From positions 1 to 38,320 of IMG/VR virus record IMGVR_UViG_3300042731_003177: a stretch of DNA of 38,320 nucleotides; one strand, given 5' to 3'. The first letter of the stretch is position 1; each line of letters begins with the position of its first letter. Below the pieces are notes generated by a model. That model saw only the letters and a program-made list of their open reading frames with translations. It searched no databases and was not told the origin of the DNA. This DNA is from a virus. Positions 1,943 through 33,313 of this stretch are shown here, piece by piece. The translations under genes were made by a program, and so were the position numbers.

Positions 1943-4170
1943 ATAAACACTCCAAGCTGGGCAATTGTTATAGCCTTGCTACCAGCATCTGGTCTTACAC
2001 TTGCAAAAAACTCGATTTTAAAGTCGTCACCTATAGGACAAATTAGTTGCCCACTTAATGATGCACTAAAAATTATGGTTTCCGAAAAATTTAGTGTTAG
2101 CGTCCTCGACAATAAAGGCGTCTTGCTCCCAGCCCCCCATGATGTTCCGTTAGGTCTTAATGCTATAGTGCATATTTGGTCTGAATCATAAGTCAGCGAT
2201 GTATGTCTAGAGTTTATTGCTATTTGAAATAATCCGGCCTTTACGTTTGAGTTTCCGTTGGAGATACACGTCACCTCGGTCCACACACCCTCGGTATACG
2301 CACTCGATGAGTACAACAAAAATGCATCATCATCGTTAAAGTGAATCAAGTGCCCGCAATAAAAATTGGTATCCTGAATAATTGCGTCTGGTAAGTCATG
2401 TATTATGACGTTCCTTCCGTCTCTTGCAATAATCCCAAAGGAAGGCCCTATTTTTATGGTCCTAGTGTCACTGTCTTCGAACACGTAATTGGCATTAAAA
2501 ATTGTATTTTGTTTTGCGTACAAATCTCCTGTCAAAATCAAAGAGCCATCTGATGGTGGTAGTCCGCCGGTCTCATCTTCTACGAATGTGGTGCTCGGGG
2601 ATCCTCCATAGAGCACGCCGAGCCACGTACTAGTTGACGGTGCTCCGCCGTATATAACGCCTGCTGATTGCACAAAGTGTGCTGGGTTCAAATCTGCATT
2701 TGCCTGTTGTGATGTAGTAGTAGTGTCAGGGGACTCGCCAGTTGACTCAACCGTTTGCGCCGAATACGCGCTTATTCCAATCCCTGTATACGTCCGGTAG
2801 GTTATATCTGGATTAAAGCGCTTTTCAACGATAACAATTGTCTGACTGATGCTCGGATCAGTGATGTTGATGGTACCAATGTCTCCGGTGTTTCTGTCTG
2901 TGCGTTCACCCCATGTGTAGATGAATGTGCCGTTTGCGATAATATTGTATTTAGCATCCGCGAATCTTGTAGCGTTTGCCTGCACGGTAGACAGTGTAGT
3001 ATCGTGCAAAAATCTCGCAACGTATTTTTTTGGCCGTGTGCTAGTGGAGGGTGACTTCGTGGTTCTTCGATACTTCCGATACAATGCAGTACCGCGAATC
3101 TCGAAATTATAGATACTCGCAACTCCACCGGAGGTATTGCGAAATGATACCCTTGCTCGACCTGACTCATACTCGGAGTCAACAATGTCTATTCCGTCGT
3201 CCGCAATAAAACCGACCGACTCGTCTGAAGCCTCAGCGGCAATGAGCGTTATGTCCTTGTTTTTGAGCCTTGTTTCCCTTGAAAGATATGGCTTGTCGAG
3301 ATATTTCACCACATACCGTTGCCAAATATCATTTATATCTGAGTCGGGGGGGTAGTAGTCATTGTTTGCTATAGCCTGCCCGGTGAATTGATATTGTTCT
3401 CCAACCTTTTGAACCGGGAGGCTATCACGAAACAGGAGAGCCGCGCTATCAACATCTGTCTGCGCAAACTCGACCTCAAAGCCGTCTTCTTTTACGTTGT
3501 TCTTCCTGACTTCTATGTCTTCGTCAACGGTAAACGTAGAGCTGATTGAATTCTTGTCCCACTGGAAGACGTTAAACTTGCCGGAAGCGTTAAAGAAAAA
3601 CACCCAGCCATATTCGCTCAACAACGTATCGATGTACTCCCGGTATGTCTCTTCGCCCTCGGTGCCCTGAAAGTACTCTACCGTCGTGGTGATATCTAAT
3701 GCACCCGAAGCGATGTCGGAAGCCGGCGTATATCCAGCGTCGTCAAGAAGCTCCCATATCAAATTGCTCGACGAATTGTCGGCGTTGAATATCTGGTACT
3801 CAGACCCTCCAATAGTAGACGGAAAGTTGAACGAAACGGTGAACAATTCATCAAGGAGATAGGAATTATCTACTGCCTCTATTGAAATTGGCATTACATT
3901 ATTCCGCTTGCGCAACCCGAAGGTTGGTGCGATCGCGCCGGTAAAAATGTCGTTGCTTGAATCGTCGTCAAGGTTAAACAGTATCCAACTTGTCGCGGAG
4001 AAGAACTTGATCTGAAGCGCCTGATTGTACTTAAGTTTGAAGCTGCACGTATTGACAACCGATTTTTGCTCGCCGTTCATGATTCGATCGGTGATGTTGA
4101 CGCTTCGATCTATAAGGTAGTCAGAATAGTCGGTCTCAGATTCGCCAGGAAAAGTCAGTTTCAGAATCAA
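1939..4170 (-). CDS. Tail hub / tail-tip protein
   Basis: This 743-residue protein directly follows the tape measure gene (ATGA overlap at 4167-4170), the position of siphovirus tail-tip or baseplate hub proteins. The first 300 residues look like a beta-rich hub with Asp/Ser-rich turns and an ITDRIMNGE segment near residue 30. Around residue 500 there is a short internal duplication (YGGAPSTSTW then YGGSPSTTF), marking a linker to a C-terminal region of about 200 residues that may contact carbohydrate or the fibre. No peptidase or lysozyme motif is visible. Family assignment is by context. Confidence 0.8.
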   Translation of the reverse strand: MILKLTFPGESETDYSDYLIDRSVNITDRIMNGEQKSVVNTCSFKLKYNQALQIKFFSATSWILFNLDDDSSNDIFTGAIAPTFGLRKRNNVMPISIEAVDNSYLLDELFTVSFNFPSTIGGSEYQIFNADNSSSNLIWELLDDAGYTPASDIASGALDITTTVEYFQGTEGEETYREYIDTLLSEYGWVFFFNASGKFNVFQWDKNSISSTFTVDEDIEVRKNNVKEDGFEVEFAQTDVDSAALLFRDSLPVQKVGEQYQFTGQAIANNDYYPPDSDINDIWQRYVVKYLDKPYLSRETRLKNKDITLIAAEASDESVGFIADDGIDIVDSEYESGRARVSFRNTSGGVASIYNFEIRGTALYRKYRRTTKSPSTSTRPKKYVARFLHDTTLSTVQANATRFADAKYNIIANGTFIYTWGERTDRNTGDIGTINITDPSISQTIVIVEKRFNPDITYRTYTGIGISAYSAQTVESTGESPDTTTTSQQANADLNPAHFVQSAGVIYGGAPSTSTWLGVLYGGSPSTTFVEDETGGLPPSDGSLILTGDLYAKQNTIFNANYVFEDSDTRTIKIGPSFGIIARDGRNVIIHDLPDAIIQDTNFYCGHLIHFNDDDAFLLYSSSAYTEGVWTEVTCISNGNSNVKAGLFQIAINSRHTSLTYDSDQICTIALRPNGTSWGAGSKTPLLSRTLTLNFSETIIFSASLSGQLICPIGDDFKIEFFASVRPDAGSKAITIAQLGVFI

Positions 4171-6884
4171 GCGATGCGTCCCCTTTCTTTCGCGACTTGC
4201 AATGCCTCTTCGATCCGCTCTCCGAAGTCATCCATTCCGTATACTGGAGCATAAAAGTTTACTGTTAGCCCTTCATTAGACATTTGCCCTGACGGTGTGA
4301 CCTGGACGTGTTCTCTGCCGGAAGCGTTGTCACCGACAAGTAAAAGTTGTGGGCCCCGAGTCATGAAATTAAGCCCCTTTGCTCCTGTCAATACCCCGGG
4401 AGTCGTGGTAATCGGTGCCGGTAGTGGTGTCTCCGGGACTGATCCACCGGCTTCCCCGAGGTCTATGACTGCATTTTCGTATTGAGCAACAAGATTTGCT
4501 AACGCAGTCTGCAACTCAGATATTGTCTGCTGTAGGATTTCATCCTCATCAGTAAACAGTCGTTCGACAAAACCAAGGCTGCGAAGCTCTGCCTGGAGTC
4601 TCCGTATTTCGTCCTCGGTAGCGCTTATGGCATCTCGCAACGCATCCTCGTTTTGAGTTGCTGCTTCGAGCTCTGCTTGATCCTCAGCTTCATCGGTTCG
4701 TTGGCCAAGGGCGTCATTTAGATCACGCATCCCTGCAACGAATTCATCGGTGCCAATAAGATTTCGTTCCCAAGCATCCCTCAAGATATCAAACTCAAGA
4801 TCAAACTCTTCTTCCAGCTCTCTCAAGTATCGTTGTCTCAGTGTCAATTCATCCTGATATGCTATGTCGAGTCCTTCGATAAAGTCTCTTGCATCTGCCG
4901 ATGCTTTTGCAAGCTCTTCCTCGGTCGGACCAAACAGGCGGTCGTAGATTCCAGCAAACAAATCAAATCCTGCCGCCGCAACTCCGCCAAGACCTGGTAC
5001 TCCAGACGCCTGACCAAGTGCCTCAGTAACAATTGAAACTACTGACCTTGTTATCCCTCTTACATCAATCTCGCCGTCTGACAACCCTTTTCCTATTCCT
5101 GATGCAATTGAGGACGCAAGCTCAAGTTGTATTGATTTTGCGATTCGCTGAAACTCAGTCTCTATTTCTATCGCAGCTTTCTTGCCTTCGTCGGCAACGT
5201 CCTTTGTTTCCTTGGTAATTTTCTCCATTGCCTCGGTAGTACGTTCTATGTCCTCCGGAAGTTTAGCGAAAATGGCCTCTACCTTTCTAAGCTCCGAAAC
5301 CCATTCCTGAGCCCCTTCATACAATTCATATTCGAGCGCCAGAGCCTCGGCAAATCCAGTGAGATCAAGGCTAGTAACTTCAGCTTCTCCTCGAGCCTTG
5401 TTAATCGCTACTACATATTCGTCAATCTTGCGTGCTGCTTCCTCCGCTACCTTCCCGGTCTCATCAATTTCATCACCAAGGTCATCGAGAGCTTCGCCGG
5501 AACGGACGACATCTGGAATGAGATCACCGCTAAGTGAATCGTCTACCTCACCAACCGCTTGGTTGAGCGCATCGATTCTATCCGCTGCCCTGTCGACCTC
5601 TGCCGTGGTAAATTCAATCGTTTCTCTCAACGCCTGTTGATTGAGCTGTAGAATTTGTTCAGCCTGACCAAGATCATCACTGCCTTGAGCAAGCTCCTCC
5701 TCCACTCTACGAAGCTCTCTTGTGGCTTCAGCTCTTTGGCTCAAAGCCCTATTAAGGATAGCGACTTGTTCCTCGCGCTCCCTCGCAAATTTGGTCCTGA
5801 GCTCTATTTGTTCTTGCTCGTTGAGTTGCTCGAGTGCCTCGGCGGTGTTGTAGACCGCGTTTTCATATTCTTTGTGTCTCCTTACTGCCGTGGTGATCAC
5901 GGTAGCTAATGTAGTAAGTGCTCCTATTGCAAGCACGATGTATCCAGCCGGAGGAGTCGCCAGCGTTTTCAATGCGGTTCCGACCTTTACTATGCCGACG
6001 GCCAACGGCCCCATTACAGCCGTCGCGGCAGCGGCGGTTAATATTACTTTCTTTGTTTCGTCATCCAACGCCGCAAACGCCTGCGATATCTCTATCGCCT
6101 GTTCAAGCATCTCATTCACAATCGGTAACAGCTCAGCGCCAAACTCAGCAAGTGCCAGCTTGGCATTGTCTATGGCAGTCGAAAATTTACCAGCCGTGGT
6201 CTGAGATATGCGCTCCATCATACCTTCAAATTGACCGCCGTCTGATGTGAGTGAAACAAGCGCCTCGTTTATCTCTTCAAATCCAACCCTTCCTGAGGAG
6301 ACAAAGTCAAAGATTTGAGATTCAGCAACCCCGAAGTTTTCAGCCAGTGTTGCGATAATCGGAACGCCGGCCTCAATGAGAATGTTAATCTCCTCCATTG
6401 AGGCTTTTCCACGCGCCTGTATTTTACCAAATGCAAGCGTTATCCTGTTCAGTTTCTCGGCATTGCCTTGCGCGACGTCTCCTATCCTACCTATTTGCTC
6501 TATGACATTCTCAGATTCGGTTCCAAAAGCAAGAAGGGTCTGTGATGCAGCGGTAATATCTTCAAGCTGTAACGGGGTTTGTGCAGAAAACGTCTTTAGC
6601 TCTTCAAAAAGTCTGTTCCCGCGCTCGACATCCTGGAGCAAGACGCCGAATGCTGTTTGTTGCCTTTCGATGTCAGCGGCAAATTTAACCGATGCAGCGG
6701 CGGCGCCGAGAATAGGGAGCGTGAGATACCGCTGCATGTTCCGTCCGATGGTATTTAGAGAGTTCGCAAATCGTTGTGCCTTGCTCTCTTGTTTGTCCAT
6801 CTCGCGGCCAAATCCGCCGAGATCACGTATCGCTTTCTCAACCTCGGCGTTTATGACGACGCGAAGTTCCTCCGCTATTGCCAT
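4167..6884 (-). CDS. Tape measure protein
   Basis: At 905 residues this is the longest protein in the genome, and in siphoviruses such a protein sets the tail length. Residues 40-260 match the tape-measure core (AASVKFAADIERQQTAFGVLL, ASMEEINILIEAGVP, QTTAGKFSTAIDNAKLALAEFG). Two hydrophobic segments lie at about 281-300 and 314-334. Residues 345-450 and 560-800 are coiled-coil-like. No lysozyme or peptidase domain is evident. Its start lies inside the frameshift extension of the upstream chaperone gene, the normal arrangement for chaperone and tape measure. The ribosome site is GGGAG nine bases upstream. Confidence 0.93.
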   Translation of the reverse strand: MAIAEELRVVINAEVEKAIRDLGGFGREMDKQESKAQRFANSLNTIGRNMQRYLTLPILGAAAASVKFAADIERQQTAFGVLLQDVERGNRLFEELKTFSAQTPLQLEDITAASQTLLAFGTESENVIEQIGRIGDVAQGNAEKLNRITLAFGKIQARGKASMEEINILIEAGVPIIATLAENFGVAESQIFDFVSSGRVGFEEINEALVSLTSDGGQFEGMMERISQTTAGKFSTAIDNAKLALAEFGAELLPIVNEMLEQAIEISQAFAALDDETKKVILTAAAATAVMGPLAVGIVKVGTALKTLATPPAGYIVLAIGALTTLATVITTAVRRHKEYENAVYNTAEALEQLNEQEQIELRTKFAREREEQVAILNRALSQRAEATRELRRVEEELAQGSDDLGQAEQILQLNQQALRETIEFTTAEVDRAADRIDALNQAVGEVDDSLSGDLIPDVVRSGEALDDLGDEIDETGKVAEEAARKIDEYVVAINKARGEAEVTSLDLTGFAEALALEYELYEGAQEWVSELRKVEAIFAKLPEDIERTTEAMEKITKETKDVADEGKKAAIEIETEFQRIAKSIQLELASSIASGIGKGLSDGEIDVRGITRSVVSIVTEALGQASGVPGLGGVAAAGFDLFAGIYDRLFGPTEEELAKASADARDFIEGLDIAYQDELTLRQRYLRELEEEFDLEFDILRDAWERNLIGTDEFVAGMRDLNDALGQRTDEAEDQAELEAATQNEDALRDAISATEDEIRRLQAELRSLGFVERLFTDEDEILQQTISELQTALANLVAQYENAVIDLGEAGGSVPETPLPAPITTTPGVLTGAKGLNFMTRGPQLLLVGDNASGREHVQVTPSGQMSNEGLTVNFYAPVYGMDDFGERIEEALQVAKERGRIA

Positions 6885-8777: not shown

Positions 8778-9171
8778 GAATACTACTCCGCAATAGTTCA
8801 GCGAATCGTCGAATCAGTTTCTTCCTATTCTCATCAATCGCCGGACGCATGTATGGCTGCTCCTTCGTGCCAGGATGGTTTTTGATGTACCTCCACCCAA
8901 CACCACGAATATTTACGGGAGCCCCTATGTAATGTGGGCCTGTCCCATATTCAACATCCTCGGCATATTCTGCATTGCTTCCAACGATTGCCTGATACCC
9001 TTCCCTCCTGTGATTGATGGACCCTTTGAGATTGCCGATGTCTACCGGCACCAACCTTTTTGCCTCCGTCTTAACAACGGTACCTGCCTCTTCCAAAAAG
9101 CCTGGAACAATGTCCGCGACAATCTGCGGGTAGTCTCTTGCTGTTTTTCTGATCACTCGTGAACTGAACAT
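8764..9171 (-). CDS. HK97 gp10-like head-tail joining protein
   Basis: This 135-residue protein has the classic pattern of the HK97-gp10 family: KTEAKRLVPVDIGNLKGSI in the first third, then AIVGSNAEYAEDVEYGTGPH, then a PGTKEQPYMRPAIDE C-terminal motif. Such proteins act at the neck, between connector and tail. The chosen ATG at 9171 overlaps the previous stop as TGATG and has GGAG upstream; a TTG six bases earlier is less likely. Confidence 0.92.
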   Translation of the reverse strand: MFSSRVIRKTARDYPQIVADIVPGFLEEAGTVVKTEAKRLVPVDIGNLKGSINHRREGYQAIVGSNAEYAEDVEYGTGPHYIGAPVNIRGVGWRYIKNHPGTKEQPYMRPAIDENRKKLIRRFAELLRSSIRGRA

Positions 9172-9761
9172 CAGCAAAACTCCAAACGCTTGTACTTGTC
9201 AGCCATTCCGAGAATCTCTCTTGGATACGTCCGTGCTCTGTCATAATTCTGAGATACTCCGTCCTGAACCTCAGACAACGTACCGTCTATTTTGTCGCTA
9301 CGATCAAGCAAGTACTTCACCATTCGCGCGGCAACCAACTTCAGCGACTTCGGCCAATCGATTGCCGAAATCCGGACACCGCCAAGATTGTAGTCGCCGT
9401 CGTCGTACGCGATATTGTATAACTCATTTGTCGAGGTCAGCGTCAACGTTCCTGCGGCAACCGTCGCGAGCTCGTGGATACCGTCGTTGAGTGTCCCACT
9501 CTCAACATGAATGTCCTGACCAGCCACAAACCGCTTTTTCACAAACTCAGATTCTCCATCCGTGATCGTGTCCGGAGAACCCTTTACAAACGAGATTGAC
9601 CCTGAGACATAGGTCACGTAATAGTCATGAAAGTAGTTGTTCAGATAGTCACAAAGGTCCTCTTGCACATAGGGTATAAGCGTATCGATAAGTGCAAGAT
9701 CATCGGTGTCGGAAGTCGAGTACCTGGTAAGTGATAAGACCTCTGCTCTCGTGACTATCAT
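9171..9761 (-). CDS. Head-tail connector (adaptor) protein
   Basis: The 196-residue protein has helical N- and C-terminal parts (LALIDTLIPYVQEDLCDYLNN; WPKSLKLVAARMVKYLLD) flanking a beta-rich insert of about residues 48-130. This is typical of gp6-type adaptors that bind below the portal ring. The insert, rich in Thr, Gly and Asp, is larger than in the smallest adaptors. Its start overlaps the preceding stop as TGATG. Function is inferred from this pattern and its place beside the gp10-like gene. Confidence 0.8.
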   Translation of the reverse strand: MIVTRAEVLSLTRYSTSDTDDLALIDTLIPYVQEDLCDYLNNYFHDYYVTYVSGSISFVKGSPDTITDGESEFVKKRFVAGQDIHVESGTLNDGIHELATVAAGTLTLTSTNELYNIAYDDGDYNLGGVRISAIDWPKSLKLVAARMVKYLLDRSDKIDGTLSEVQDGVSQNYDRARTYPREILGMADKYKRLEFC

Positions 9762-10495
9762 CAATAGCCCCCAAACCGCCTTCGCAGTTGCTTGTTATAC
9801 TTGATCCCGCCTTCCTGGTGATAGAATCTCCGCTTTGTCTCTTCAAGTTCGCGTTGCAATTCGTCCATGCCGTTCTGTAACTGCTTACCCTCTTCAACCA
9901 GCGCGGCAAGCATTCTCGGCTCTTCGTACCCGTATAGGAAATTGGCTTTAAGTACGTCTCCCCCGTTGAGCTTTACCTTGACTCCCATCGCATGGGCGTA
10001 GCCAAGGAAAAACTCACAGTTTGGCCGCTGGTAGCCGTACTCACCTTCCGCCTCCATCCATATGCCGAACGTTTCAATGTCATCGTATCCCATCAAAAGC
10101 GCCATCGCGAGCATGTAGCTCACGGTGTTCGTCACGTACAGCGTGTCTCCCATGGTAGGCATATAGAATGCGTTCCGCACCACGTCTATCGGATAGGCAC
10201 GAGAATTGGGAACCTCATCATAGTGATCCTGCATCCACACGTCTCCGCCGTGTCCGTTTAGTACGCGCAGAATCGCGTCGTCAGCCCAAAACCGTCTCGG
10301 ATGCATCTCGAATATGGTATCAACACGCTTCACGTCCGTCGCGGTCAGCACGCCTGATACGCCCCAAATTTCAACGCTCTCGTCGTCAAACGGAGCATCG
10401 CCCCGGTTTCGTGCCGTGCCGAGCATGATGAGCTTCGGCCGTTCCGGCTTCTCAGTGGTGCGCTTTACTTCTGCCCGCTTACGTATTTTCGCCAA
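9761..10495 (-). CDS. Rossmann-like protein, tandem paralogue A; possible glycosyltransferase
   Basis: This 244-residue protein is a clear paralogue of its upstream neighbour (10465-11157). Both share an N-terminal LGTA-R/S-R nucleotide-binding-like loop, EIWGVSG, a VD-FE-HP-R-W motif, MQDHYD, and VTNT followed by a long helix ending GYDDI-GI. An N-terminal glycine loop plus a T-x(5-15)-LGY-(D/E)-I-x-x-GI-(D/W) segment recalls Maf (DUF115) and GT42-type transferases; this is a visual similarity only. The C-terminus is coiled-coil-like. The likely start is TTG 10495 with GGAGG upstream, inside the end of the preceding gene. It lies in the head block, unusual for an enzyme. Confidence 0.75.
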   Translation of the reverse strand: MAKIRKRAEVKRTTEKPERPKLIMLGTARNRGDAPFDDESVEIWGVSGVLTATDVKRVDTIFEMHPRRFWADDAILRVLNGHGGDVWMQDHYDEVPNSRAYPIDVVRNAFYMPTMGDTLYVTNTVSYMLAMALLMGYDDIETFGIWMEAEGEYGYQRPNCEFFLGYAHAMGVKVKLNGGDVLKANFLYGYEEPRMLAALVEEGKQLQNGMDELQRELEETKRRFYHQEGGIKYNKQLRRRFGGY

Positions 10496-11157
10496 TGCTC
10501 AGCCTCCTGCATCGCTCCCTCAGTGCGCAGCATGTTTTCCTTTGCGGCCGTCATCTTCCGCTTCTCTTGTTCTACGCCGTTCGAAAGGGCTTCCTGTCGA
10601 TCAGTAATCGCACGCATTAAAGCAGTCGGCTCATGAAATCCGTATTCAAATCTGGCCTTCAAAAGCGTACTCTCGCCGGCAACATATAATCTCAGCCCGA
10701 GCCCCTGGATAATCCCGGCCGCCCATGCAACGTTCGGCTGCTGATAGGCATACTCGGTCTCGTGTTCCATGTGGACGCCGTATAATTGGAAGTCATCAAA
10801 CCCGTCAAGTATGCCCTTTAGCATCATCCAGGTGATCGTATTGGTCACATATAGATTTGCTCCCATTGCCGGAATATAAAACCGCTCCTTGACTTCATTA
10901 TACGGATAGGCAACCGATTTAGGGATATCATCGTAGTGATCTTGCATCACAACATTTCCATCGAACTCCTTCAAGTTTGCCATGACCGCGGGTATTCCCC
11001 AATACCGTTTTGGATGAAGCTCAAACAACACATCCACACGTTCGACATCATTCGCCTTTTGCGTCCCGCTGACGCCCCAAATCGTGATGTCCTTATCGTG
11101 GAATGGAGCCTGGGAACGGCTTGGTGCCGTTCCCAGGATTGCAAGTGATCCTCCCAT
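10465..11157 (-). CDS. Rossmann-like protein, tandem paralogue B; possible glycosyltransferase
   Basis: This 230-residue partner of 9761-10495 has the same order of motifs: ILGTAPSRSQAPF at residues 7-19, TIWGVSG, VDVLFELHPKRYWG, VMQDHYDDIPKS, YVTNTITWMMLKGILDGFDDF and HETEYAYQQPN, then a coiled-coil-like tail. The GTAPSR loop is closer than that of paralogue A to the G-x-GPS loop of Maf/GT42 enzymes, so this copy may be the catalytically more complete one. The stop of the preceding gene and this ATG overlap as TAATG. A tandem duplication produced the pair, and the two have diverged widely. Confidence 0.75.
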   Translation of the reverse strand: MGGSLAILGTAPSRSQAPFHDKDITIWGVSGTQKANDVERVDVLFELHPKRYWGIPAVMANLKEFDGNVVMQDHYDDIPKSVAYPYNEVKERFYIPAMGANLYVTNTITWMMLKGILDGFDDFQLYGVHMEHETEYAYQQPNVAWAAGIIQGLGLRLYVAGESTLLKARFEYGFHEPTALMRAITDRQEALSNGVEQEKRKMTAAKENMLRTEGAMQEAEHWRKYVSGQK

Positions 11158-11615
11158 TACTTCCTCTTGATCACAATTGCGTGGACCTTGTAGTCAGCAG
11201 CAGCCGTATCGCCCGTCGATCGGACGAAGTTAAGATAACCGTCGGTGTCCTTATATCGAGCCGTCTCAAACGGCCCGAGCACGACCACGGTACCCTTGAT
11301 CACGCTCCCACTCGACCCGATAGTCGAAAGCGACACGTCCGCCGAAAACGTAAAGGTCTGATCTGCCTGGCCACTTCCTGTGTAAGGGCTTTTGGTCGAG
11401 GTAAGAATCTTGATTCCCGGAGCCGTAGTACCGCTTGAAACGTGGAGCAAGACAATGACATCCTCACCACGGATCGCGGTAGAGGTGTCGTCAAGATCAA
11501 TGTGTGCATTGTCGGCGCTCGAAAGCGTCTGCCATTCAGAGGTCTTCATGAGCCCAAGCAGCCCGGTGCTGCCGGCTGGGCCAATGACCATCGGTGCAAT
11601 TGTTCGTTCAGCCAT
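11157..11615 (-). CDS. Possible capsid decoration or head protein
   Basis: This 152-residue beta-rich protein directly follows the major capsid gene, where head decoration or stabilisation proteins are usually encoded. It is rich in Thr, Ser and Gly (LLHVSSGTTAPG, SVIKGTVVVLGPFETARY) with no transmembrane or catalytic motif. The ATG has a GGAGGG ribosome site. No family is recognised; the role is inferred from position and composition. Confidence 0.7.
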   Translation of the reverse strand: MAERTIAPMVIGPAGSTGLLGLMKTSEWQTLSSADNAHIDLDDTSTAIRGEDVIVLLHVSSGTTAPGIKILTSTKSPYTGSGQADQTFTFSADVSLSTIGSSGSVIKGTVVVLGPFETARYKDTDGYLNFVRSTGDTAAADYKVHAIVIKRK

Positions 11616-11629
11616 GTTCCATACCCTCC

Positions 11630-12520
11630 TTACGTCGAGAGTCCTGCGTCATCGACGTACGCTACGCCGAGGCGATCAGGACGAACGACCTTCGCACCGT
11701 AGACGTAAAGACCGGCAACAAACTCGCCAAACTGCTTTTCGATCGGGCCGCTTTTGATTTCAGTTATCTGACCCGCATAGCTGATCGCGTCGTTGGTGCC
11801 AAACATTACGCGCCATTGCGTGCTTCCGTTCGTACTGACGTTGTTCGATGCGTAAATAGCAAGACCAGCCAGCGACCCGACAAATCCGTTTCCGGTGCCA
11901 AGTAGCGGCGTAATTCCTGCCATGTTACCCACTGTCAAATCGTCGCTAAGCTGCGAATACGTGATCCACGAATGCAGCCATGGCGGAATGACAATCCACC
12001 TACCCATGCTCGGGCAGTTTGCCTGATCCATGTACCGGTTAACCCGCGAGAAAAATCCGGCAAGATTCGACGCGGAGCTGGAATGCACCGAGTACAGCGA
12101 GAGGCTGGAACTCGACGTCCCGAGCCCACTGGTAGTGATTCCTGCATCCGTGTACTTGGCTGCAATGAACTGATCTATGGTATCCGCGATTGCGAACCCT
12201 GCCTTCTGTGTCGCGGCCGCAATAAGGTTGCCCCTTGCTTGCCGTCGCTCGATCGAATCGACCCCGAAGTTGAAGTACTTCTGTTGATCGACGATTAGTT
12301 TACGCTGTGCACCGGTAAGGCGTTGGACGGTCATGTCCGTGCCCTCGGTATAATCGTTGACGTTGATGTCACCGATTTCATTGATGTTTACGCTCTGCCC
12401 GGCCGCAGTGATCTCGCCTTCATAGTCGGTGTTCACGAAGTTTCGAAACACCAGAGCTTTTTCTACGTTGACGATGATATTTGCCGACCAAATGGCAGGG
12501 CGAAATTCAGCCGTTCCCAT
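11630..12520 (-). CDS. Major capsid protein (HK97 fold)
   Basis: At 296 residues and placed right after the scaffold gene, this is the major capsid subunit. The start, with FRPAIWSANIIVNVEKALVF and then EITAAGQSVNINEIGDINV, is typical of HK97-fold coat proteins of the P22-like or DUF5309-like type. The middle holds the long spine-helix-like segment (AGFAIADTIDQFIAAKYTDAG), and the end has the P-domain pattern IEKQFGEFVAGLYVYGAKVVRPDRL. Lack of a long N-terminal delta domain agrees with a separate scaffold gene. The ribosome site AGGAG precedes the ATG. Confidence 0.9.
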   Translation of the reverse strand: MGTAEFRPAIWSANIIVNVEKALVFRNFVNTDYEGEITAAGQSVNINEIGDINVNDYTEGTDMTVQRLTGAQRKLIVDQQKYFNFGVDSIERRQARGNLIAAATQKAGFAIADTIDQFIAAKYTDAGITTSGLGTSSSSLSLYSVHSSSASNLAGFFSRVNRYMDQANCPSMGRWIVIPPWLHSWITYSQLSDDLTVGNMAGITPLLGTGNGFVGSLAGLAIYASNNVSTNGSTQWRVMFGTNDAISYAGQITEIKSGPIEKQFGEFVAGLYVYGAKVVRPDRLGVAYVDDAGLST

Positions 12521-17098: not shown

Positions 17099-17437
17099 TC
17101 ATTCCTCCTTGAACACGTGGTTCATCTCTTCATACATGATATGGTCATCATGTCGAAGTTGCAAGTGGTGTTTTTTGAGGAACGCATCACGTTCCGCCTT
17201 TGATCGGAATACGATGGAAAAGAAATACCCGGCTTCACCATCGAAGGCCCATTGCTCTTTCCATTTCTGCTCGTATGCCCGAACCTTTTTGAGTTGGTCG
17301 CCTATCTCATCGGTACACGTTTTGGTCAAGTCGTCTATGGCTTCCATTTTCTCGCGTTCTGATCTCACATCGCCGATGGTAAGGTCACCAACGGTGAGAT
17401 CACCAATCGATACGTTGGTTATTTCAACGTCTTTCAT
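17099..17437 (-). CDS. Hypothetical protein paired with the PP-loop gene
   Basis: This 112-residue protein is not recognised. After an N-terminal strand repeat (ITNVSIGDLTVGDLTIGDV, a possible small beta-helix) it becomes helical and charged, then has a beta-strand EAGYFFSIVFRSKAERDAFL. The start at 17437 makes an ATGA overlap with the PP-loop gene; longer versions reaching into that gene are unlikely. It may be a partner of that enzyme, judged only by coupling. Confidence 0.75.
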   Translation of the reverse strand: MKDVEITNVSIGDLTVGDLTIGDVRSEREKMEAIDDLTKTCTDEIGDQLKKVRAYEQKWKEQWAFDGEAGYFFSIVFRSKAERDAFLKKHHLQLRHDDHIMYEEMNHVFKEE

Positions 17438-18225
17438 AGTGGATCCTTTGGCTGTAGCACCAGATCGCCGAATTTCTTGTACATCACGCCCTTCCTCAAC
17501 GGCCAATCGGGATGATAGTACTCCCTCCTTGAAATGATCGTCTCCGCCATTGGGAATCGATCAAGCACGCGCGCCCAATTGTTCGGGCACTGTTCTTTCA
17601 ACACTTTTGAAAAGCGGTAGTCAAGTTGTTCGAAGGTAATTCCGAATAGCTCGTAGTCATATGGGACTTTGCAATTATGCCGCTTCAGGAGCTCAATGGC
17701 GTCTCGATTTTCAAAGTCCCAAATCGGGTACCATTTCCCTTGTTTGCGGCTAATCCCCTGAGTCTGGCGCATGGCTTTTCGTCGCATTGGGGAGTCGCCC
17801 TGTTTGACGCCGAGTGCGACAAGCGTTGTATCCGGCAGTCCGGCCCAGTACGCCGTAAACCTCTGTATCTGTTGTTTTGTGAGCGCCCCGAAGTGTTGGG
17901 GTGTTTTCGCGAGCTCGACAATGGCCTCGACTCTGGCCGGTGTCTGAAAATACCAATTCGCTAACGATTCAAGGCACAAGTGGGATGGGACACGTTCTAC
18001 CTTGACGCCAAAATGGTCCTCAAACCAGTCAAGGTACTCCCACGTCCACGACATAGGCGTGTGGTAATAGTAGTATAGTACGGCCTCGGATGGGTCCCAT
18101 TCGTCAGATTCGATACATCTCAGCCACGCAGCGGTGGCATCGGCGCCCGTGGAATAGGCCAAAAATAGCCGTTTATGGCCCTGTATATCCTGTATTTGGC
18201 GCGATAACCGCCTAAATTCATCCAT
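17434..18225 (-). CDS. PP-loop ATPase, phosphoadenosine-phosphosulfate reductase family
   Basis: The 263-residue protein has an N-terminal pyrophosphatase loop, LAYSTGADATAAW, with S25, G27 and D29 of the S-x-G-x-D pattern, within the layout of the PAPS-reductase/ATP-pyrophosphatase family. Phage members of this family are common near packaging or replication genes; some relatives act in DNA phosphorothioation (DndC), but here no dnd or ssp partner genes are present, so the substrate is unknown. The middle (residues 125-165) carries several basic residues (MRRKAMRQTQGISRKQ). It is the first gene after a 63-base gap that contains a good promoter, and its ATG lies nine bases beyond the -10 box. 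Confidence 0.85.
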   Translation of the reverse strand: MDEFRRLSRQIQDIQGHKRLFLAYSTGADATAAWLRCIESDEWDPSEAVLYYYYHTPMSWTWEYLDWFEDHFGVKVERVPSHLCLESLANWYFQTPARVEAIVELAKTPQHFGALTKQQIQRFTAYWAGLPDTTLVALGVKQGDSPMRRKAMRQTQGISRKQGKWYPIWDFENRDAIELLKRHNCKVPYDYELFGITFEQLDYRFSKVLKEQCPNNWARVLDRFPMAETIISRREYYHPDWPLRKGVMYKKFGDLVLQPKDPL

Positions 18226-18288: not shown

Positions 18289-18903
18289 TTACTTCAGCCC
18301 ACTTTCCTGATCTGATACTTCGCGTGTTTTGAGCGTGATGTAGTTCCGAGTCGCCCGCAACTTCTGTTCAGCAATCCACAGATCGTCGGCAGTATTGATG
18401 TCCTGGCATTCTAGATCGTCAAGCACTAATCCAATTTGGGTTTGGAGCTTGTTGGATATCATCGCCGCGACATCAAACCAGTAAAATTGTCCGACATCGG
18501 CAGTTGAATGACCGACGCAACAGTATGTACTCACAACGCCGGATCGCCTCAACAGTGATAGACCACGAAGCAATTGCGCCGGCGTCACAAGCGCAGCGGT
18601 GGCATACAGATAACATAGATACGTTGCATCCCGGTGTCGGTCACAATAGTGACGCACAACATCGATATCGGGAACATCATCGGCACAGAGCTCGGGCGAT
18701 CTCCAGTTTATCACAGCGGGTGGAAACACGATGTTGCGCATGGCTTCATCGTCGGTAGATACTTCGATCCGCTCAAACAATCCGGATGATACAGCGGCAT
18801 CTATCGGGTTCTGAATAATCGGCCGGCCGAAAAACTCGATTCGGTTCTTCCCAGGCAGCCGCTTCGATCCTTTCCGCGCCGGGATGATACAGACGTTACG
18901 CAT
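18289..18903 (-). CDS. CMP-nonulosonate cytidylyltransferase (NeuA/PseF-like)
   Basis: This 204-residue enzyme should activate a nonulosonic acid with CTP to give the CMP-sugar donor. The N-terminal nucleotide loop IPARKGSKRLPGKN (residues 7-20) is close to the family consensus, and the C-terminal LECQDINTADDLWIAEQKL matches the DI-T-EDL-AE metal/helix motif. Conserved-looking segments between them are STDDEAM and SPELCADDVPDID. Length is slightly short for the family (about 220-235). The ATG at 18903 has GAGGAG upstream and overlaps the acyltransferase stop by eight bases. It is the last gene of the sugar cassette; the late promoter follows. Confidence 0.9.
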   Translation of the reverse strand: MRNVCIIPARKGSKRLPGKNRIEFFGRPIIQNPIDAAVSSGLFERIEVSTDDEAMRNIVFPPAVINWRSPELCADDVPDIDVVRHYCDRHRDATYLCYLYATAALVTPAQLLRGLSLLRRSGVVSTYCCVGHSTADVGQFYWFDVAAMISNKLQTQIGLVLDDLECQDINTADDLWIAEQKLRATRNYITLKTREVSDQESGLK

Positions 18904-19375
18904 CGGCTTTCTCCTCGAATGATTCCCCGTTAAATACAATCAGCAGCGAATCCACAAAATCGCCGCCGCTTGTTTTTTTTCGCCTTGGAAAAATCACCGA
19001 ACCAGCGGAATAGCGCCGTGCGGCAAGTGTCCATTCCGCCAATGTCTCAGAATCAAGGTACACTTCGGCGACGAAAAAGTCGGCTTTGATCCCTTTATGG
19101 ATTACAAGATCAAATGCCTCTTGCCAGATGTCCCATGCTGATTTTGTGATCAAAAACGACAGCTCGGGCATGGTACCGAAGCTTCCAAACCCGGTGTATC
19201 CAATGGGTGTTCCATCATCCGTTATGGTAAACCACCATTGTCGATGTTGTTTCCACCAATTCACCTGCTCATCTTCTGATATCTGATATCTTGTTCTCAG
19301 GCAATTCGGCTGCTCTGCACGCCACTCAAGCGCCATGAGCGCATGAACAAGCTTCAGTGGTTCAAGCCGGAGCAT
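18896..19375 (-). CDS. GNAT-like N-acyltransferase
   Basis: This 159-residue protein has the GNAT outline: an N-terminal strand MLRLEPLKLVHALMALEW, a WWFTITDDGTPIGYTGFGSF strand pair typical of acetyltransferase strands 3-4, an ELSFLIT strand and an AEVYLDSETLAEW helix resembling motif B. The acetyl-CoA pyrophosphate loop (R/Q-x-x-G-x-G/A) is not canonical after ELSFLITKSAWDIW, so activity or acyl donor may differ. In pseudaminic acid pathways, PseH is a GNAT acting on the 4-amino sugar, and the surrounding genes make that the best guess. The ATG at 19375 follows GAGGAGG and overlaps the formyltransferase by 14 bases. Confidence 0.8.
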   Translation of the reverse strand: MLRLEPLKLVHALMALEWRAEQPNCLRTRYQISEDEQVNWWKQHRQWWFTITDDGTPIGYTGFGSFGTMPELSFLITKSAWDIWQEAFDLVIHKGIKADFFVAEVYLDSETLAEWTLAARRYSAGSVIFPRRKKTSGGDFVDSLLIVFNGESFEEKADA

Positions 19376-19874
19376 TGCGAACCTCCTCGATGGTAGTATC
19401 CCAGCCATTTGAGAGATCACCGAGTTGGCCGGTATGGTGGTAACTCCCGACCATTTGCACAATACTCTGCCACGTATTCTGCAACAGCGTCAGCATCTCG
19501 TCTTGGTGTCGTTGATATGCCTGTTTGAGCGTGTACGTTTTGGGTATCTGTATCTCTCTCTGAGCGATGATGTTCCCTCGATCAAGCGCTGGAGTCATCT
19601 CGTGGATCGTGACGCCGAACGGAGTCCCTTCACGCGCGGCCCACACGATCGGATGTGCTCCGCGATTCCACGGCAACAGACTCATGTGCAGATTGATTGC
19701 CGGGTACTTGTTCAGCAGCTTTGCTGGAACAATGTAGCGATAGTTATAGCTCACGATCAGGTCGCAATCATCTATCAACTTATGGTCGTCATAGATCGCC
19801 ACATCGGCGACGGTGTGCAGCCAACGTGCGGTAGGATGAGTGTTTTCGTTGTTGGTGCAAAATGCAATCCTCAT
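19362..19874 (-). CDS. Sugar N-formyltransferase (formyl_trans_N family)
   Basis: The 170-residue protein keeps the catalytic triad of 10-formyltetrahydrofolate-dependent transferases: N61 and H63 in AINLHMSLLPWNRG, with the SLLP loop, and D98 in TIHEMTPALDRGNI. The spacing resembles methionyl-tRNA and UDP-aminosugar formyltransferases. It lacks the C-terminal domain of the tRNA enzyme, so the substrate is more likely an amino sugar than a tRNA. In this cassette the target would be an amino group of the nonulosonate or its precursor. The start at 19874 overlaps the synthase stop as TGATG, with GGAGGT upstream. Confidence 0.88.
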   Translation of the reverse strand: MRIAFCTNNENTHPTARWLHTVADVAIYDDHKLIDDCDLIVSYNYRYIVPAKLLNKYPAINLHMSLLPWNRGAHPIVWAAREGTPFGVTIHEMTPALDRGNIIAQREIQIPKTYTLKQAYQRHQDEMLTLLQNTWQSIVQMVGSYHHTGQLGDLSNGWDTTIEEVRNAPA

Positions 19875-20476
19875 CACAGTACCTCCGCAAGCTCTTTCGG
19901 CGTAACCGCGAACGGTCCAGAATCGGGATTGTCGGAAGATCGTTTGAGGCAAAAGTGCTTCTCAATGATAACAGGCAAGTACCTTTTGTAAAGGCCCCAG
20001 CCTTCGGTGTGGTCTGAGATGACCTTGAGCGAGCTGAAGTTGTGCACGTACTGCGCGGCGTCTGCCGGGTAGCTTCGCACGCATGCAAGGTGTGTCTCGC
20101 CTTCTATCTCGGGATACGTGCCATTGACGCTCAAGTACACGTGACGGTCAGTCTTGCGAGCAAGCCAGTACAGCTTTGGGACGCAAGCGATCTTGACAAA
20201 CGGCACGTCAAATCGTTCAAGGAAATGGAGTGAGGTGATGTCGAACACGCTGGCCGTTGTTGGGTATCCTCGCTCACACGCATAGCCATATGCCCATGCA
20301 AACGTGCGCCACAAGAGCGGTTCGTTCCCACCGGCATGCTCGAATAGCTGATGCTTCATGACAATGCTGTGCTTGCCTGTATCGCAGTCGATCACCGCAT
20401 CAATCATGTCGCGCAGATATCCAATGTCGTTGTGATGTTCGTTTGCCGAACCTAACTCAATAATGAATTGACTCAT
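19874..20476 (-). CDS. Compact nonulosonate synthase (NeuB/PseI/LegI-like), no SAF domain
   Basis: This 200-residue protein carries the active-site series of NeuB-type synthases, which condense a hexosamine with phosphoenolpyruvate: IIELGSAN (5-12), MKHQLF (40-45), TTASVFD (73-79), VPFVKIA (91-97), VISDHTEGWG (152-161), IIEKHFCLKR (170-179) and a final PKELAEVL. Cellular enzymes are about 330-350 residues, with a longer barrel and a C-terminal SAF (antifreeze-like) domain; both the SAF domain and roughly 80 barrel residues are absent here. The ATG at 20476 has AAGGAG upstream and overlaps the previous stop as ATGA. Confidence 0.88.
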   Translation of the reverse strand: MSQFIIELGSANEHHNDIGYLRDMIDAVIDCDTGKHSIVMKHQLFEHAGGNEPLLWRTFAWAYGYACERGYPTTASVFDITSLHFLERFDVPFVKIACVPKLYWLARKTDRHVYLSVNGTYPEIEGETHLACVRSYPADAAQYVHNFSSLKVISDHTEGWGLYKRYLPVIIEKHFCLKRSSDNPDSGPFAVTPKELAEVL

Positions 20477-22341: not shown

Positions 22342-22493
22342 CTGGATGCCTCCTTGTCAGCGAACATGCTCACGCCATACTCCTCGGCGTCGAGTCCGAG
22401 TTTACGGACGATGGCCTCACACTGTTGCTGAGTCGGCATGTCGATCTCTACTATTGGCTTGTTTGTCTTGATCTCGTATACGTAGAGGGTCAT
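22338..22493 (-). CDS. Small hypothetical protein, 51 residues
   Basis: A short frame starts at ATG 22493 after AAGGAG and ends with TGA overlapping the HTH gene start (ATGA). The product is an ordered-looking alpha/beta sequence (MTLYVYEIKTNKPIVEIDMP, then an Ala/Leu-rich helix). A hairpin (22505-22522) lies directly in front of its ribosome site. No family is recognised. Confidence 0.7.
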   Translation of the reverse strand: MTLYVYEIKTNKPIVEIDMPTQQQCEAIVRKLGLDAEEYGVSMFADKEASR

Positions 22494-22504
22494 GGTGTCT
22501 CCTT

Positions 22505-22522
22505 GCCGGTCTACAGACCGGC
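22505..22522 (-). repeat. Perfect RNA hairpin covering a stop codon
   Basis: The minus strand reads GCCGGTCTGTAGACCGGC, an 8-bp perfect stem with a two-base tip. The TAG inside it is the stop codon of the upstream gene (22511-22810), and the ribosome site of the next gene follows at once. It shares GTAGACCGG with the hairpin near 22.83 kb and resembles the one near 33.33 kb. Confidence 0.7.
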
Positions 22523-22810
22523 AGCATCGAGTTCCGCGCGTAGGCGTTCGCCTCGCTCGATGACCTCTTGATCGTACTGAATTTCTGACTCGCGCGGAAA
22601 TGACGACAAGTCAATTGATCCATCAAGCTCCCACGCCAACGCAGCCGAGATACCCTTGTCCTCTACTATTTCGCGGAACCGCACGGCATCTCGCTTGTAG
22701 CGGAATCCATGGTCAAGCTGGAGGCCGTCGTCGTAGACGTGGAAATAACCTTGTCGTCCTTCCGATTTCATCTCGATCTGATCATAGTAGGCTCGTTTGA
22801 TCTTCAGCAT
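22511..22810 (-). CDS. Hypothetical early protein, 99 residues
   Basis: The product is an acidic alpha/beta protein not assigned to a family (GYFHVYDDGLQLDHGFRYKR, then FREIVEDKGISAALAWELD). The ATG at 22810 is chosen because GGAGGG lies just upstream; an ATG 12 bases earlier overlaps that ribosome site. The stop codon lies in a perfect hairpin. It is a member of the small-gene unit downstream of the 23.77 kb promoter. Confidence 0.75.
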   Translation of the reverse strand: MLKIKRAYYDQIEMKSEGRQGYFHVYDDGLQLDHGFRYKRDAVRFREIVEDKGISAALAWELDGSIDLSSFPRESEIQYDQEVIERGERLRAELDAAGL

Positions 22811-22822
22811 CTTTCCCTCCAT

Positions 22823-22850
22823 CCGGTCTACCCACGGGCCGGTACGTCTG
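22823..22850. repeat. Intergenic hairpin repeat, copy 1
   Basis: This 28-base element begins CCGGTCTACCCACGGG and ends CCGGTACGTCTG. It matches 26 of 28 positions of the element at 33327-33354, 10.5 kb away. The outer CCGG pairs can form a short stem directly in front of the ribosome site of the gene at 22810. A shorter relative lies at 32960-32984. Confidence 0.75.
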
Positions 22851-22866
22851 CAGGTTGAGCGCCACG

Positions 22867-23079
22867 CTACTTCGTCGCGTGCCTATAGTTAGCCATCCGT
22901 CGGGTGTACTCTTCCTGTACCTCCCTGAGAAACAGTTCGTCGTATCTCTCCTTTGCTCTTCGCCTTGTTTCTGCGGCTTCGGATCGCGCGGTGATTGCTC
23001 TCGACTCAGCCTCTCTTGCGGCCGCAAGAGCCTCTTTGGCTCTGCGTAGTCTGATTTGTGTGTCGGTTTCGTTCATCAT
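22867..23079 (-). CDS. Short coiled-coil protein
   Basis: This 70-residue protein is almost entirely a highly charged Ala/Glu/Arg helix (RRAKEALAAAREAESRAITA, then RRRAKERYDELFLREVQEEY), probably a coiled coil. The start has two consecutive ATG codons after GGAGG. No family is recognised. Stable GC-rich hairpins lie just upstream (23102-23150). Confidence 0.72.
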   Translation of the reverse strand: MMNETDTQIRLRRAKEALAAAREAESRAITARSEAAETRRRAKERYDELFLREVQEEYTRRMANYRHATK

Positions 23080-23099
23080 CTGATCCTCCGTAGGTTGAG

Positions 23100-23150
23100 C
23101 GCCGCGCCCCTTTCGGGGCGGCCCCGGGTTTCACGGGGCTCGGCCTTGCC
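23100..23150 (-). other. Two adjacent GC-rich RNA hairpins
   Basis: On the minus strand, GCCCCG/CGGGGC with a seven-base loop is followed directly by CGCCCC-GAAA-GGGGCG, which has a GNRA tetraloop. They sit upstream of the ribosome site of the gene at 23079. A frame crossing them (from 23200) is open but poorly supported, so I treat the stretch as intergenic RNA structure. Confidence 0.6.
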
Positions 23151-23196
23151 CTACGCTCGGCCATCGGCTCCGCAGGTGATGCAGTAACCGTTGCCG

Positions 23197-23457
23197 TCAT
23201 GCCTCTACAATCACGACTCCACCGCATCCGATCTCGGTGAGCGAGTCATGATACGCCTCCACCGCTAGGATCGGCTCGCCGTCCGAGTCGATTCCTCCGG
23301 AACCGCTCCATCGCCGTCGTGCGCTGAGTCTCTGGAGACCGAGCTCCGATCTTACCATCGCTCGCGCTTCGCAGATGTTGCTCGTCTCGCCGATGACGTA
23401 CTCGTCCTCAGCGCCTCCACGACCGTCAGCTGCGTATTTCTCGACTCTGTACCTCAT
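23197..23457 (-). CDS. Hypothetical early protein, 86 residues
   Basis: The product is an alpha/beta protein with MRYRVEKYAADGRGGAEDE at the start, a charged middle (RAMVRSELGLQRLSARRRW) and a hydrophobic end ILAVEAYHDSL-GGVVIVEA. No family is recognised. The ribosome site is GAGGAG. It is preceded by two small hairpins (near 23476 and 23509). Confidence 0.78.
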   Translation of the reverse strand: MRYRVEKYAADGRGGAEDEYVIGETSNICEARAMVRSELGLQRLSARRRWSGSGGIDSDGEPILAVEAYHDSLTEIGCGGVVIVEA

Positions 23458-23525
23458 CTCTCACTCCTCTGCCGGACTTGGGACCGGCTTGTGCATTACC
23501 GGGGGCCGTAGCCCCCGCCCCTCTG

Positions 23526-23705
23526 CTACCGACTCATCGCTCGGATGCGCCGCATCGTGCGCTCACTGAGCGAGTGACACGTCGTGTAGTAGCCCGCGAC
23601 GCTGTCGTACACACGCACGGTGCCGTCGTCGTCCACCATCACGCGATTTGTGCGGACGCCTTCGCCGTCGAATGCCTTGCACCTGATCGTCATTGTCTTT
23701 TCCAT
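23526..23705 (-). CDS. Small early phage protein, 59 residues
   Basis: A 59-residue frame starts at ATG 23705 after GGAGG and stops at TAG 23526-23528. The sequence MVDDDGTVRVYDSVAGYYTT followed by CHSLSER is characteristic of a small protein often found among phage accessory genes, with no known function. It is the first gene behind the strong promoter at 23770-23798, with a leader of about 58 bases. Confidence 0.8.
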   Translation of the reverse strand: MEKTMTIRCKAFDGEGVRTNRVMVDDDGTVRVYDSVAGYYTTCHSLSERTMRRIRAMSR

Positions 23706-23769
23706 CTCTCGTTCCTCCGTAGCAATTTCCGGTGGCCTACAGCCTCCGTCGGTCTCTCAACCTGTCTAT

Positions 23770-23798
23770 AGTATAGGTCATATATACCTATATGTCAA
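23770..23798 (-). promoter_or_regulatory. Strong sigma70-like leftward promoter
   Basis: On the minus strand, a perfect TTGACA (23793-23798) and TATACT (23770-23775) are 17 bases apart. It lies in a 184-base gap and points to the small genes, the HTH gene and the sugar cassette. The predicted message leader is about 58 bases and includes a GGC/GCC hairpin before the ribosome site. Confidence 0.85.
23772..23792. promoter_or_regulatory. Palindromic operator in the promoter spacer
   Basis: The arms TATAGGT (23772-23778) and ACCTATA (23786-23792) form a perfect 7-bp inverted repeat around CATATAT. It fills the interval between the -10 and -35 boxes, the classic position for a repressor site. The HTH protein (22141-22341) and the RHH protein (33545-33730) are candidate binders. 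Confidence 0.75.
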
Positions 23799-23854
23799 CC
23801 GTTATCGGCCGGTTTTTCCGGTTTTTTTGACTGAACTACTACACACGCGATAAG

Positions 23855-23870
23855 TATTTCACGTGAAACC
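23855..23870. promoter_or_regulatory. parS-like ParB-binding site
   Basis: The 16-mer TATTTCACGTGAAACC matches the bacterial chromosomal parS consensus TGTTTCACGTGAAACA at 14 of 16 positions, including the full 12-bp palindromic core TTTCACGTGAAA (23857-23868). It lies in the regulatory gap between two leftward units. I see no parA or parB gene in the genome. Confidence 0.7.
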
Positions 23871-23889
23871 ATCGTTGGCACCGTGGTGG

Positions 23890-24090
23890 CTATTCGATCG
23901 GCGCTCCGCCGTCTGGATTTATCATCGCCGACAGATCGGAGAGACTGCCGGCAATCTTGGATAGCTCGAGCCCGGCTTCTACGGCGTCGATGTCCTGAAG
24001 CTCGATTCGGAACGCGAGAACTTCGACCTGTAGCCCGAGCGACTCAACCTGCTTTGCTCTGCACTCTGCCTGACGTCTTGAGATATTCAT
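23890..24090 (-). CDS. Small helical protein
   Basis: This 66-residue product is helical, with a hydrophobic heptad-like segment (VESLGLQVEVLAFRIELQDI). It overlaps its neighbour by ATGA and has AAGGAG upstream. It is the last gene of the replication/recombination unit before the regulatory gap. No family is recognised. Confidence 0.75.
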   Translation of the reverse strand: MNISRRQAECRAKQVESLGLQVEVLAFRIELQDIDAVEAGLELSKIAGSLSDLSAMINPDGGAPIE

Positions 24091-32959: not shown

Positions 32960-32984
32960 GGCCTACCCACGGGCCGGCACGTCG
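32960..32984. repeat. Intergenic hairpin repeat, divergent copy
   Basis: The sequence CTACCCACGGGCCGG followed by ACGTC is shared with the element at 22823-22850. GGCC at 32960-32963 and 32972-32975 forms a short stem. It contains the TAG stop codon of the 32963-33313 gene, like the hairpin at 22505. Confidence 0.55.
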
Positions 32985-33313
32985 TTGATGTAGGCCCGGG
33001 CCCACGCCTGGGCGATCGCCTTTTCGTACGCATCCTGCTCCTGGGCGATCGCCTTGATGTACGCCTCCCGCGCCGGTGCGATCGCCTTGATGTACGCCTT
33101 CCGCGCCGGTGCGGTCGCCTTGCTGTACGCCTCCCACGCCTGGGCGGTCAGTAACTTTTTCGCCCACTCGAAATTAAACTTGGTGGCAAATCTTTGCGCT
33201 TTTGCTTCTGTCACGTAGGTTCGCTCGCCAAAGAGCTCGCGGAACAACTCTACCTGCTCGCTGCATGCGTCAGCATTGCGGAGTTGTTCGATGGTAATCA
33301 TGCGTTTCTTCAT
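32963..33313 (-). CDS. Phage protein with 11-residue A-Y-x-K-A helical repeats
   Basis: This 116-residue protein has an N-terminal domain (IEQLRNADACSEQVELFREL) and then about five copies of an 11-residue repeat of the form AYIKAIAPARE (residues 58-108), encoded by imperfect 33-bp DNA repeats. Proteins of this kind are common in phages and vary in copy number; the function is unknown. The start overlaps the previous stop as TGATG. Confidence 0.8.
   Translation of the reverse strand: MKKRMITIEQLRNADACSEQVELFRELFGERTYVTEAKAQRFATKFNFEWAKKLLTAQAWEAYSKATAPARKAYIKAIAPAREAYIKAIAQEQDAYEKAIAQAWARAYINDVPARG

Follow-up and report, generated by a model that had tools for sequence, protein, structure and literature searches.

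Tandem Maf/GT42-like proteins in a phage head module as candidate transferases of a phage-made nonulosonic acid to virion proteins

Main finding

Two neighbouring late genes of a 38,320-nt phage genome record (IMGVR_UViG_3300042731_003177, positions 1-38,320; this whole stretch is referred to as the window) encode paralogous proteins of a family that is located inside the Maf/GT42/MptE fold group and outside the strict Maf or GT42 families. Both proteins are very likely glycosyltransferases of the Maf/GT42 type. The donor in this phage is probably a CMP-nonulosonate of its own making, and the best guess for the acceptor, judging from gene position alone, is a virion protein. Taken as a whole, the reading we moderately favour is that of stand-alone, phage-specific Maf/GT42-like transferases that would add nonulosonic acid to virion proteins during assembly.

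The gene pair and its place in the head module

The first-pass annotation had described tandem paralogues in the head gene block, and this description holds. Both open reading frames are intact and overlap each other by 31 bp, and the upstream product (GT-1) and the downstream product (GT-2) align over 225 residues with 41% identity (E = 1e-66), which identifies them as paralogues and excludes chance resemblance. The same pair is present at the same place in a second phage (L002), with 61-70% protein identity. In both copies, differences between the window and L002 are two to three times as frequent at the third codon position as at the first and second, the pattern expected under purifying selection, which indicates that such selection acts on each of them. 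The true start of GT-2 is uncertain and may lie further in, given that the L002 counterpart starts at an ATG close to the 5' side of the LGTA loop. As regards the two motifs highlighted earlier, the LGTAPSR loop is found in the upstream copy while the downstream copy reads LGTARNR, and the second motif is present with the spacing DD-x4-G(I/V) instead of x3.

The late genes on the minus strand follow the order terminase small and large subunits, portal, minor head protein, scaffold, major capsid protein, a 152-aa protein, the pair, adaptor, neck protein and tail terminator, with PHROGs or Pfam support for portal, capsid, adaptor, neck and terminator. The coordinates are presented in Table 1. 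The start codon of GT-1 lies within the stop of the 152-aa gene (taATG), and GT-2 overlaps its 3' neighbour, the adaptor gene. Given these overlaps and that between the two copies, the pair looks built for translation together with the head proteins.

The 152-aa protein is probably a decoration protein. Its predicted structure is beta-rich (pLDDT 77; best Z 7.0) with no clear fold match, 17 of the 28 members of its family match phrog_24894 (function unknown), and nearly all related phages carry a member of that family after the capsid gene. A second beta-rich protein is sometimes found in the slot (L101, L107 and L115).

In loci L002-L017, wherever the flanks are present, a transferase-family gene lies between the capsid and small-head-protein genes and the adaptor gene; the exception is L018, in which it precedes the capsid gene. 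In phages with the same capsid type and no member of the family, the slot is closed or filled by another beta-rich protein. Hence, the head module has one fixed slot into which the transferase gene is optionally inserted, and head assembly can do without it. Distant members of the family, too, have virion genes as neighbours, those for terminase, portal and capsid among them.

In the family tree, GT-1 is placed within a clade of single-copy members (14 rows, support 99). GT-2 groups with L002 (support 99) and L004 (support 84) on a sister branch. The tandem pairs of L036, L122 and L141 are placed elsewhere in the tree and are therefore probably separate in origin. In L036 (G028), the independent pair (9968-12219) adjoins a terminase gene.

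Table 1. Head-module and sugar-pathway genes of the window
Feature	Coordinates	Strand	Match or remark
Head-tail adaptor / head protein closing the slot	9171..9764	-	
GT-2, downstream paralogue of GT-1	9761..10495	-	244 aa, TTG start
GT-1, upstream Maf/GT42-like transferase (predicted)	10465..11157	-	230 aa, ATG start
Beta-rich small head protein, 152 aa, candidate acceptor	11157..11615	-	translationally coupled to GT-1
Major capsid protein, candidate acceptor	11630..12520	-	phrog_267
PseF-like CMP-nonulosonate cytidylyltransferase, 216 aa	18289..18939	-	2e-35
Protein in PseH position, GNAT-like by eye	18896..19462	-	no Pfam match; homologues at the same place in G003 and G012
Sugar N-formyltransferase-like protein, 196 aa	19362..19952	-	
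NeuB/PseI-like compact nonulosonate synthase, 238 aa	19874..20590	-	
PseC-like compact aminotransferase, 197 aa	20685..21278	-	Lys of FHxxKHL motif retained
PseB-like UDP-GlcNAc 4,6-dehydratase, 286 aa	21256..22116	-	4e-76

Sequence relationships of the family

The family was assembled from 50 members gathered in IMG/VR, and their alignment was needed, single-protein searches of IMG/VR having returned one locus only. Neither window protein matched Pfam, PHROGs or NCBIfam, and nothing convincing was obtained with these libraries among all 50 members. Both window proteins remain below the gathering score of PF01973 (Maf_flag10) and the cut-off of PF06002 (CST-I); one of the 50 members reaches the former at E = 0.027, and one the latter at E = 0.026. 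When the 50-member profile was compared with all PDB sequences, nine matches fell below E = 0.1, all of them GT42 sialyltransferases, the best being CstII at E = 4.2e-4. The alignment is collinear over profile residues 29-166, from the first beta strand and a GxGPS-like loop through the TS-x-x-YM...G(I/V)D segment, the same region that the first-pass annotation had picked out.

The only PDB matches to single sequences were designed ankyrin proteins, which were rejected as chance. Among INPHARED phages there is a single distant match, labelled "type 11 methyltransferase"; this label is unsupported, as the protein belongs to the transferase family by profile. Microcystis phage PP496355.1, an isolated phage, encodes a member of the family. 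A search of 84,980 bacterial species representatives with two narrow patterns yielded one relative, so the family looks nearly phage-specific. The papers searched contain no description of a phage glycosyltransferase of MptE/DUF115 type, and none of pseudaminate pathways in phages alongside auxiliary metabolic genes.

Predicted fold and comparison with known enzymes

The AF2 model of GT-2 (pLDDT 92) presents a Rossmann-like nucleotide-sugar domain of about 165 aa followed by a 48-residue C-terminal helix. The best structural match in VIA-align is the Maf glycosyltransferase 5mu5, with Z = 12.7, an rmsd of 2.8 and 153 aligned residues, followed by CstII and CstI (Z = 11.2), HPPK/MptE (11.0), SteA (10.2), thiamin pyrophosphokinase (10.1) and human ST8SiaIII (7.4), with unrelated structures at Z of about 5 and below. 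In Foldseek, CstII is the only PDB match below 1e-3, and the relatives in BFVD bear the annotation "MptE-like". A fold like that of GT-2 is predicted for GT-1 from their 41% identity. These values bear out the proposed likeness to Maf and GT42, with Maf and CstII/CstI as best fold matches and GT42 as the sole plausible profile match in PDB; the suggested comparison with PF01973 and GT42 thus agrees in fold and in remote GT42 profile, and not in Pfam matches, none of which lies above cut-off. A clear structural match to a non-transferase virion protein, which would have counted against the proposal, was found by neither Foldseek nor VIA-align. Since the fold is common to MptE and thiamin pyrophosphokinase, the chemistry is something we infer.

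Maf has three domains, the central one being similar to CstII (PMC11339370). The likeness of the pair to Maf (PF01973, 5mu5) lies in that central Rossmann-like fold; Maf is also tied to pseudaminate or legionaminate synthesis, and cytoplasmic protein O-glycosylation is what is proposed here. However, whereas Maf adds an N-terminal Rossmann-like and a C-terminal helical domain, the pair consists of 230-244 aa proteins with a single domain and a helix, has no PF01973 match, and is found among phage head genes rather than flagellar genes.

With GT42 (CstII and CstI, PF06002), the pair shares the fold (Z = 11.2), the collinear profile (E = 4e-4), the GxGPS-like loop and the segment TS-x-x-YM...AI...GY-x-x-I...G(I/V)D. 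It differs in lying below the PF06002 cut-off, in that the His188 lid (PMC4202792) is unaligned, and in that the window's clade has His or Trp in place of the Asp of GID; moreover, the GT42 enzymes modify LOS, whereas a late phage protein is concerned here. MptE-type 6-hydroxymethylpterin diphosphokinase, thiamin pyrophosphokinase and SteA are alike in overall fold (Z = 10-11), yet the family has no invariant Asp and no profile match to them.

In actinobacteriophages, virions are glycosylated by phage glycosyltransferases coded near the structural genes. The present case is similar in having a phage transferase beside structural genes and a proposed virion acceptor, and different in that the donor would be a nonulosonic acid with its own pathway and the transferase belongs to another fold family.

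Conserved residues

G144, E152 and Q156 are invariant in all 50 sequences, H65 is present in the 49 of 49 that cover its position, Y153 and Y188 occur in at least 49, and P102 is nearly invariant. This conservation of G144, E152, Q156, H65, Y153 and Y188 is the pattern to be expected of an enzyme. No Asp is invariant among the 50 members, while Glu152 is. GT-1 retains the invariant H, E, Y and Q, and GT-2 retains H65, E152, Y153, Q156 and R157.

In CstII, the general base is His188, and Asn51 and Arg129 are located at the acceptor (PMC4202792). The profile alignment to CstII stops before the lid region with His188, and the invariant H65 and E152 fall elsewhere; given this, either is put forward as a candidate catalytic residue only.

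The two copies diverge at two putatively pocket-side positions. Position 146, the GID aspartate, is Asp in most members; it is His in the window's clade and is replaced by Trp in GT-2 and in its L002 counterpart. At position 157, Arg is present in 43 of the 50 members, and GT-1 has Gln (QRP to QQP). Hence GT-1 combines His146 with Gln157 and GT-2 Trp146 with Arg157, a divergence suggesting that the copies probably differ in acceptor or donor, or function as a pair.

The sugar pathway of the window and its relatives

A cluster of sugar genes is located 6 to 11 kb from the pair, upstream of the terminase genes (Table 1). By sequence, it is a compact pathway of CMP-pseudaminate type. Its enzymes are reduced in size, with PseC at about 200 aa and PseI at about 200-240 aa, against the usual 380 and 340 or so, and their active-site motifs are retained. 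Relatives of the compact PseC were found in 506 IMG/VR stretches with two patterns.

The compact cluster recurs in two near-complete relatives, G003 and G012, where identity to the window is 44-57% for PseB, PseC and PseI. Both pathway and transferase are retained in these phages although the capsid proteins are only 44-46% identical to the window's. The sugar of the window may be N-formylated; the formyltransferase gene (19362-19952) was not seen in the G003 and G012 clusters. The window also carries a phosphoadenosine-phosphosulfate-reductase-like gene (17434-18225; phrog_2302, 5e-14) in the interval that separates the sugar cluster from the terminase genes.

No glycosyltransferase gene was recognised by eye inside the sugar clusters inspected. 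Nor was a known glycosyltransferase domain found among those proteins of the window that were scanned with Pfam.

A fourth phage fragment of the slot type (L105, G074) also has a NeuB gene. Its neighbours, upstream of terminase genes, are NanE-like and NeuA-like by eye (L168, G074, 2922-5088), and the pathway there is possibly of Neu5Ac type rather than pseudaminate. In G045 (22468-23905), a transferase-family gene directly adjoins a full-length epimerase; this neighbour and the tandem pair of L036 are other links to nucleotide sugars.

Co-occurrence of family and pathway

The family is present in 8 of 50 IMG/VR contigs picked by compact PseC only (E < 1e-43) against 0 of 39 control contigs picked by DNA methylase (p = 0.008), and in 8 of 49 against 0 of 32 when contigs of at least 30 kb are considered (p = 0.019); in the other direction, 4 of 16 near-complete contigs picked by the family (the window not counted) have NeuB and none of 32 controls does (p = 0.009), all of these p-values being indicative, given that the contigs are phylogenetically non-independent and that those picked by PseC have the greater mean length. 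When capsid-sharing relatives alone are compared, no significant enrichment is seen (3 of 4 against 2 of 9, p = 0.22).

The first-pass annotation had linked the family to nonulosonate synthesis, and had taken wide occurrence in phages without nucleotide-sugar genes as an argument to the contrary. The link is upheld by the statistics in both directions and by the retention in G003 and G012, yet 12 of the 17 near-complete family-bearing genomes have no NeuB, so that wide occurrence was in part found; these are mostly other branches and more distant members. Among the twelve, G045 has the adjacent epimerase and the rest have no sugar-nucleotide gene of the kinds searched, which suggests that donors may vary or be host-derived. 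One tree branch, chosen post hoc, has NeuB in 5 of its 7 near-complete genomes, and the 10 that fall outside this branch all lack it (p = 0.003). Hence, the nonulosonate link may be limited to one branch, with the others relying on host donors or different ones. Three relatives without the family (G054, G055 and G058) also have NeuB; the pathway thus does not require this family's transferase.

Proposed function and alternative explanations

In the proposed mechanism, GT-1 and GT-2 would be translated along with the head proteins and be active in the infected cytoplasm. The donor would be a CMP-nonulosonic acid, most likely of pseudaminate type and perhaps N-formylated, supplied by the phage's own compact PseB-PseC-PseI-PseF pathway. 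The sugar would be placed on Ser/Thr, or on a pre-existing glycan, of a newly made virion protein, the first candidates being the capsid protein and the small head protein encoded next to the pair. The analogy with GT42 would make the reaction an inverting one that needs no metal, and the candidates for the catalytic residue are His65 and Glu152. The Ser/Thr contents of the capsid and small head proteins show no difference when phages with and without the gene are compared (p = 0.73 and 0.63, respectively), giving no acceptor signature.

The leading alternative, which we consider unlikely, is a glycosyltransferase of the same fold with a host substrate (surface polysaccharide, LPS or flagellin), leading to a superinfection block or serotype change, in which case the place in the late operon would be incidental. 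Phage genes for sugar transfer, and for acetyl and glucosyl transfer, usually target the host O-antigen, the known enzymes of this fold modify flagellin or LOS, and the many carriers lacking a donor pathway would use host CMP-sugars. Against a host target, the gene is locked in the head module and coupled to head genes in nearly all members of its own clade with flanks, distant members lie among virion genes too, and no lipid-carrier or export genes were seen adjoining.

Rather improbable is an accessory protein of the head or connector that is catalytically inactive or has a structural role, its long C-terminal helix being used for scaffolding or docking. A structural role would agree with the fixed place among connector genes, the 48-residue helix, and the deviating residues of GT-2 at 146 (W) and of GT-1 at 157 (Q). 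However, phages with the same head genes dispense with the gene, their slot being closed or holding another beta-rich protein, the most conserved residues are of pocket type, and no virion-protein fold is clearly matched.

Slightly less probable still is another nucleotide enzyme of the same fold, of MptE or thiamin pyrophosphokinase type: HPPK/MptE and thiamin pyrophosphokinase score almost as high as GT42 (Z = 11.0 and 10.1, respectively), and the BFVD relatives are annotated accordingly, yet Mg-dependent kinases of this fold depend on acidic metal ligands and no Asp is invariant among the 50 members, sequence profiles reach GT42 only, Maf is the top fold match, and the family is associated with CMP-sugar synthesis. 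No pterin or thiamin genes were recognised near the pair.

Returning to glycosylation of the virion, O-glycosylation with nonulosonates is known from flagella, and here it seems to be the work of a single-domain enzyme in a phage head operon. A broader proposal, which we regard as possible and slightly doubtful, is that a large unannotated class of phages makes a nonulosonic sugar with size-reduced enzymes and glycosylates its capsid during assembly through stand-alone Maf/GT42-like transferases of the head operon, the tandem copies representing two sugar-acceptor specificities. If true, such phages would decorate their particles autonomously with a sugar of sialic-acid type, with a bearing on adsorption, environmental stability, and host and immune recognition. 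A function would also be given to a recurrent "hypothetical" head-operon gene of many metagenomic phages, absent from Pfam, PHROGs and NCBIfam as tested, and the case suggests that a minimal single-domain enzyme can perform transfer of GT42/Maf type.

Other features of the window and of L002

Two proteins of the window (34128-34820 and 32963-33313) contain short tandem alanine-rich repeats, one of them reading AIAPARKAYIK..., and a tail protein with Mtd_N and collar domains is encoded at 906-1586. In L002, the large terminase gene (27-1802) is apparently split by an intein-like stretch, with start and end motifs recognised by eye.
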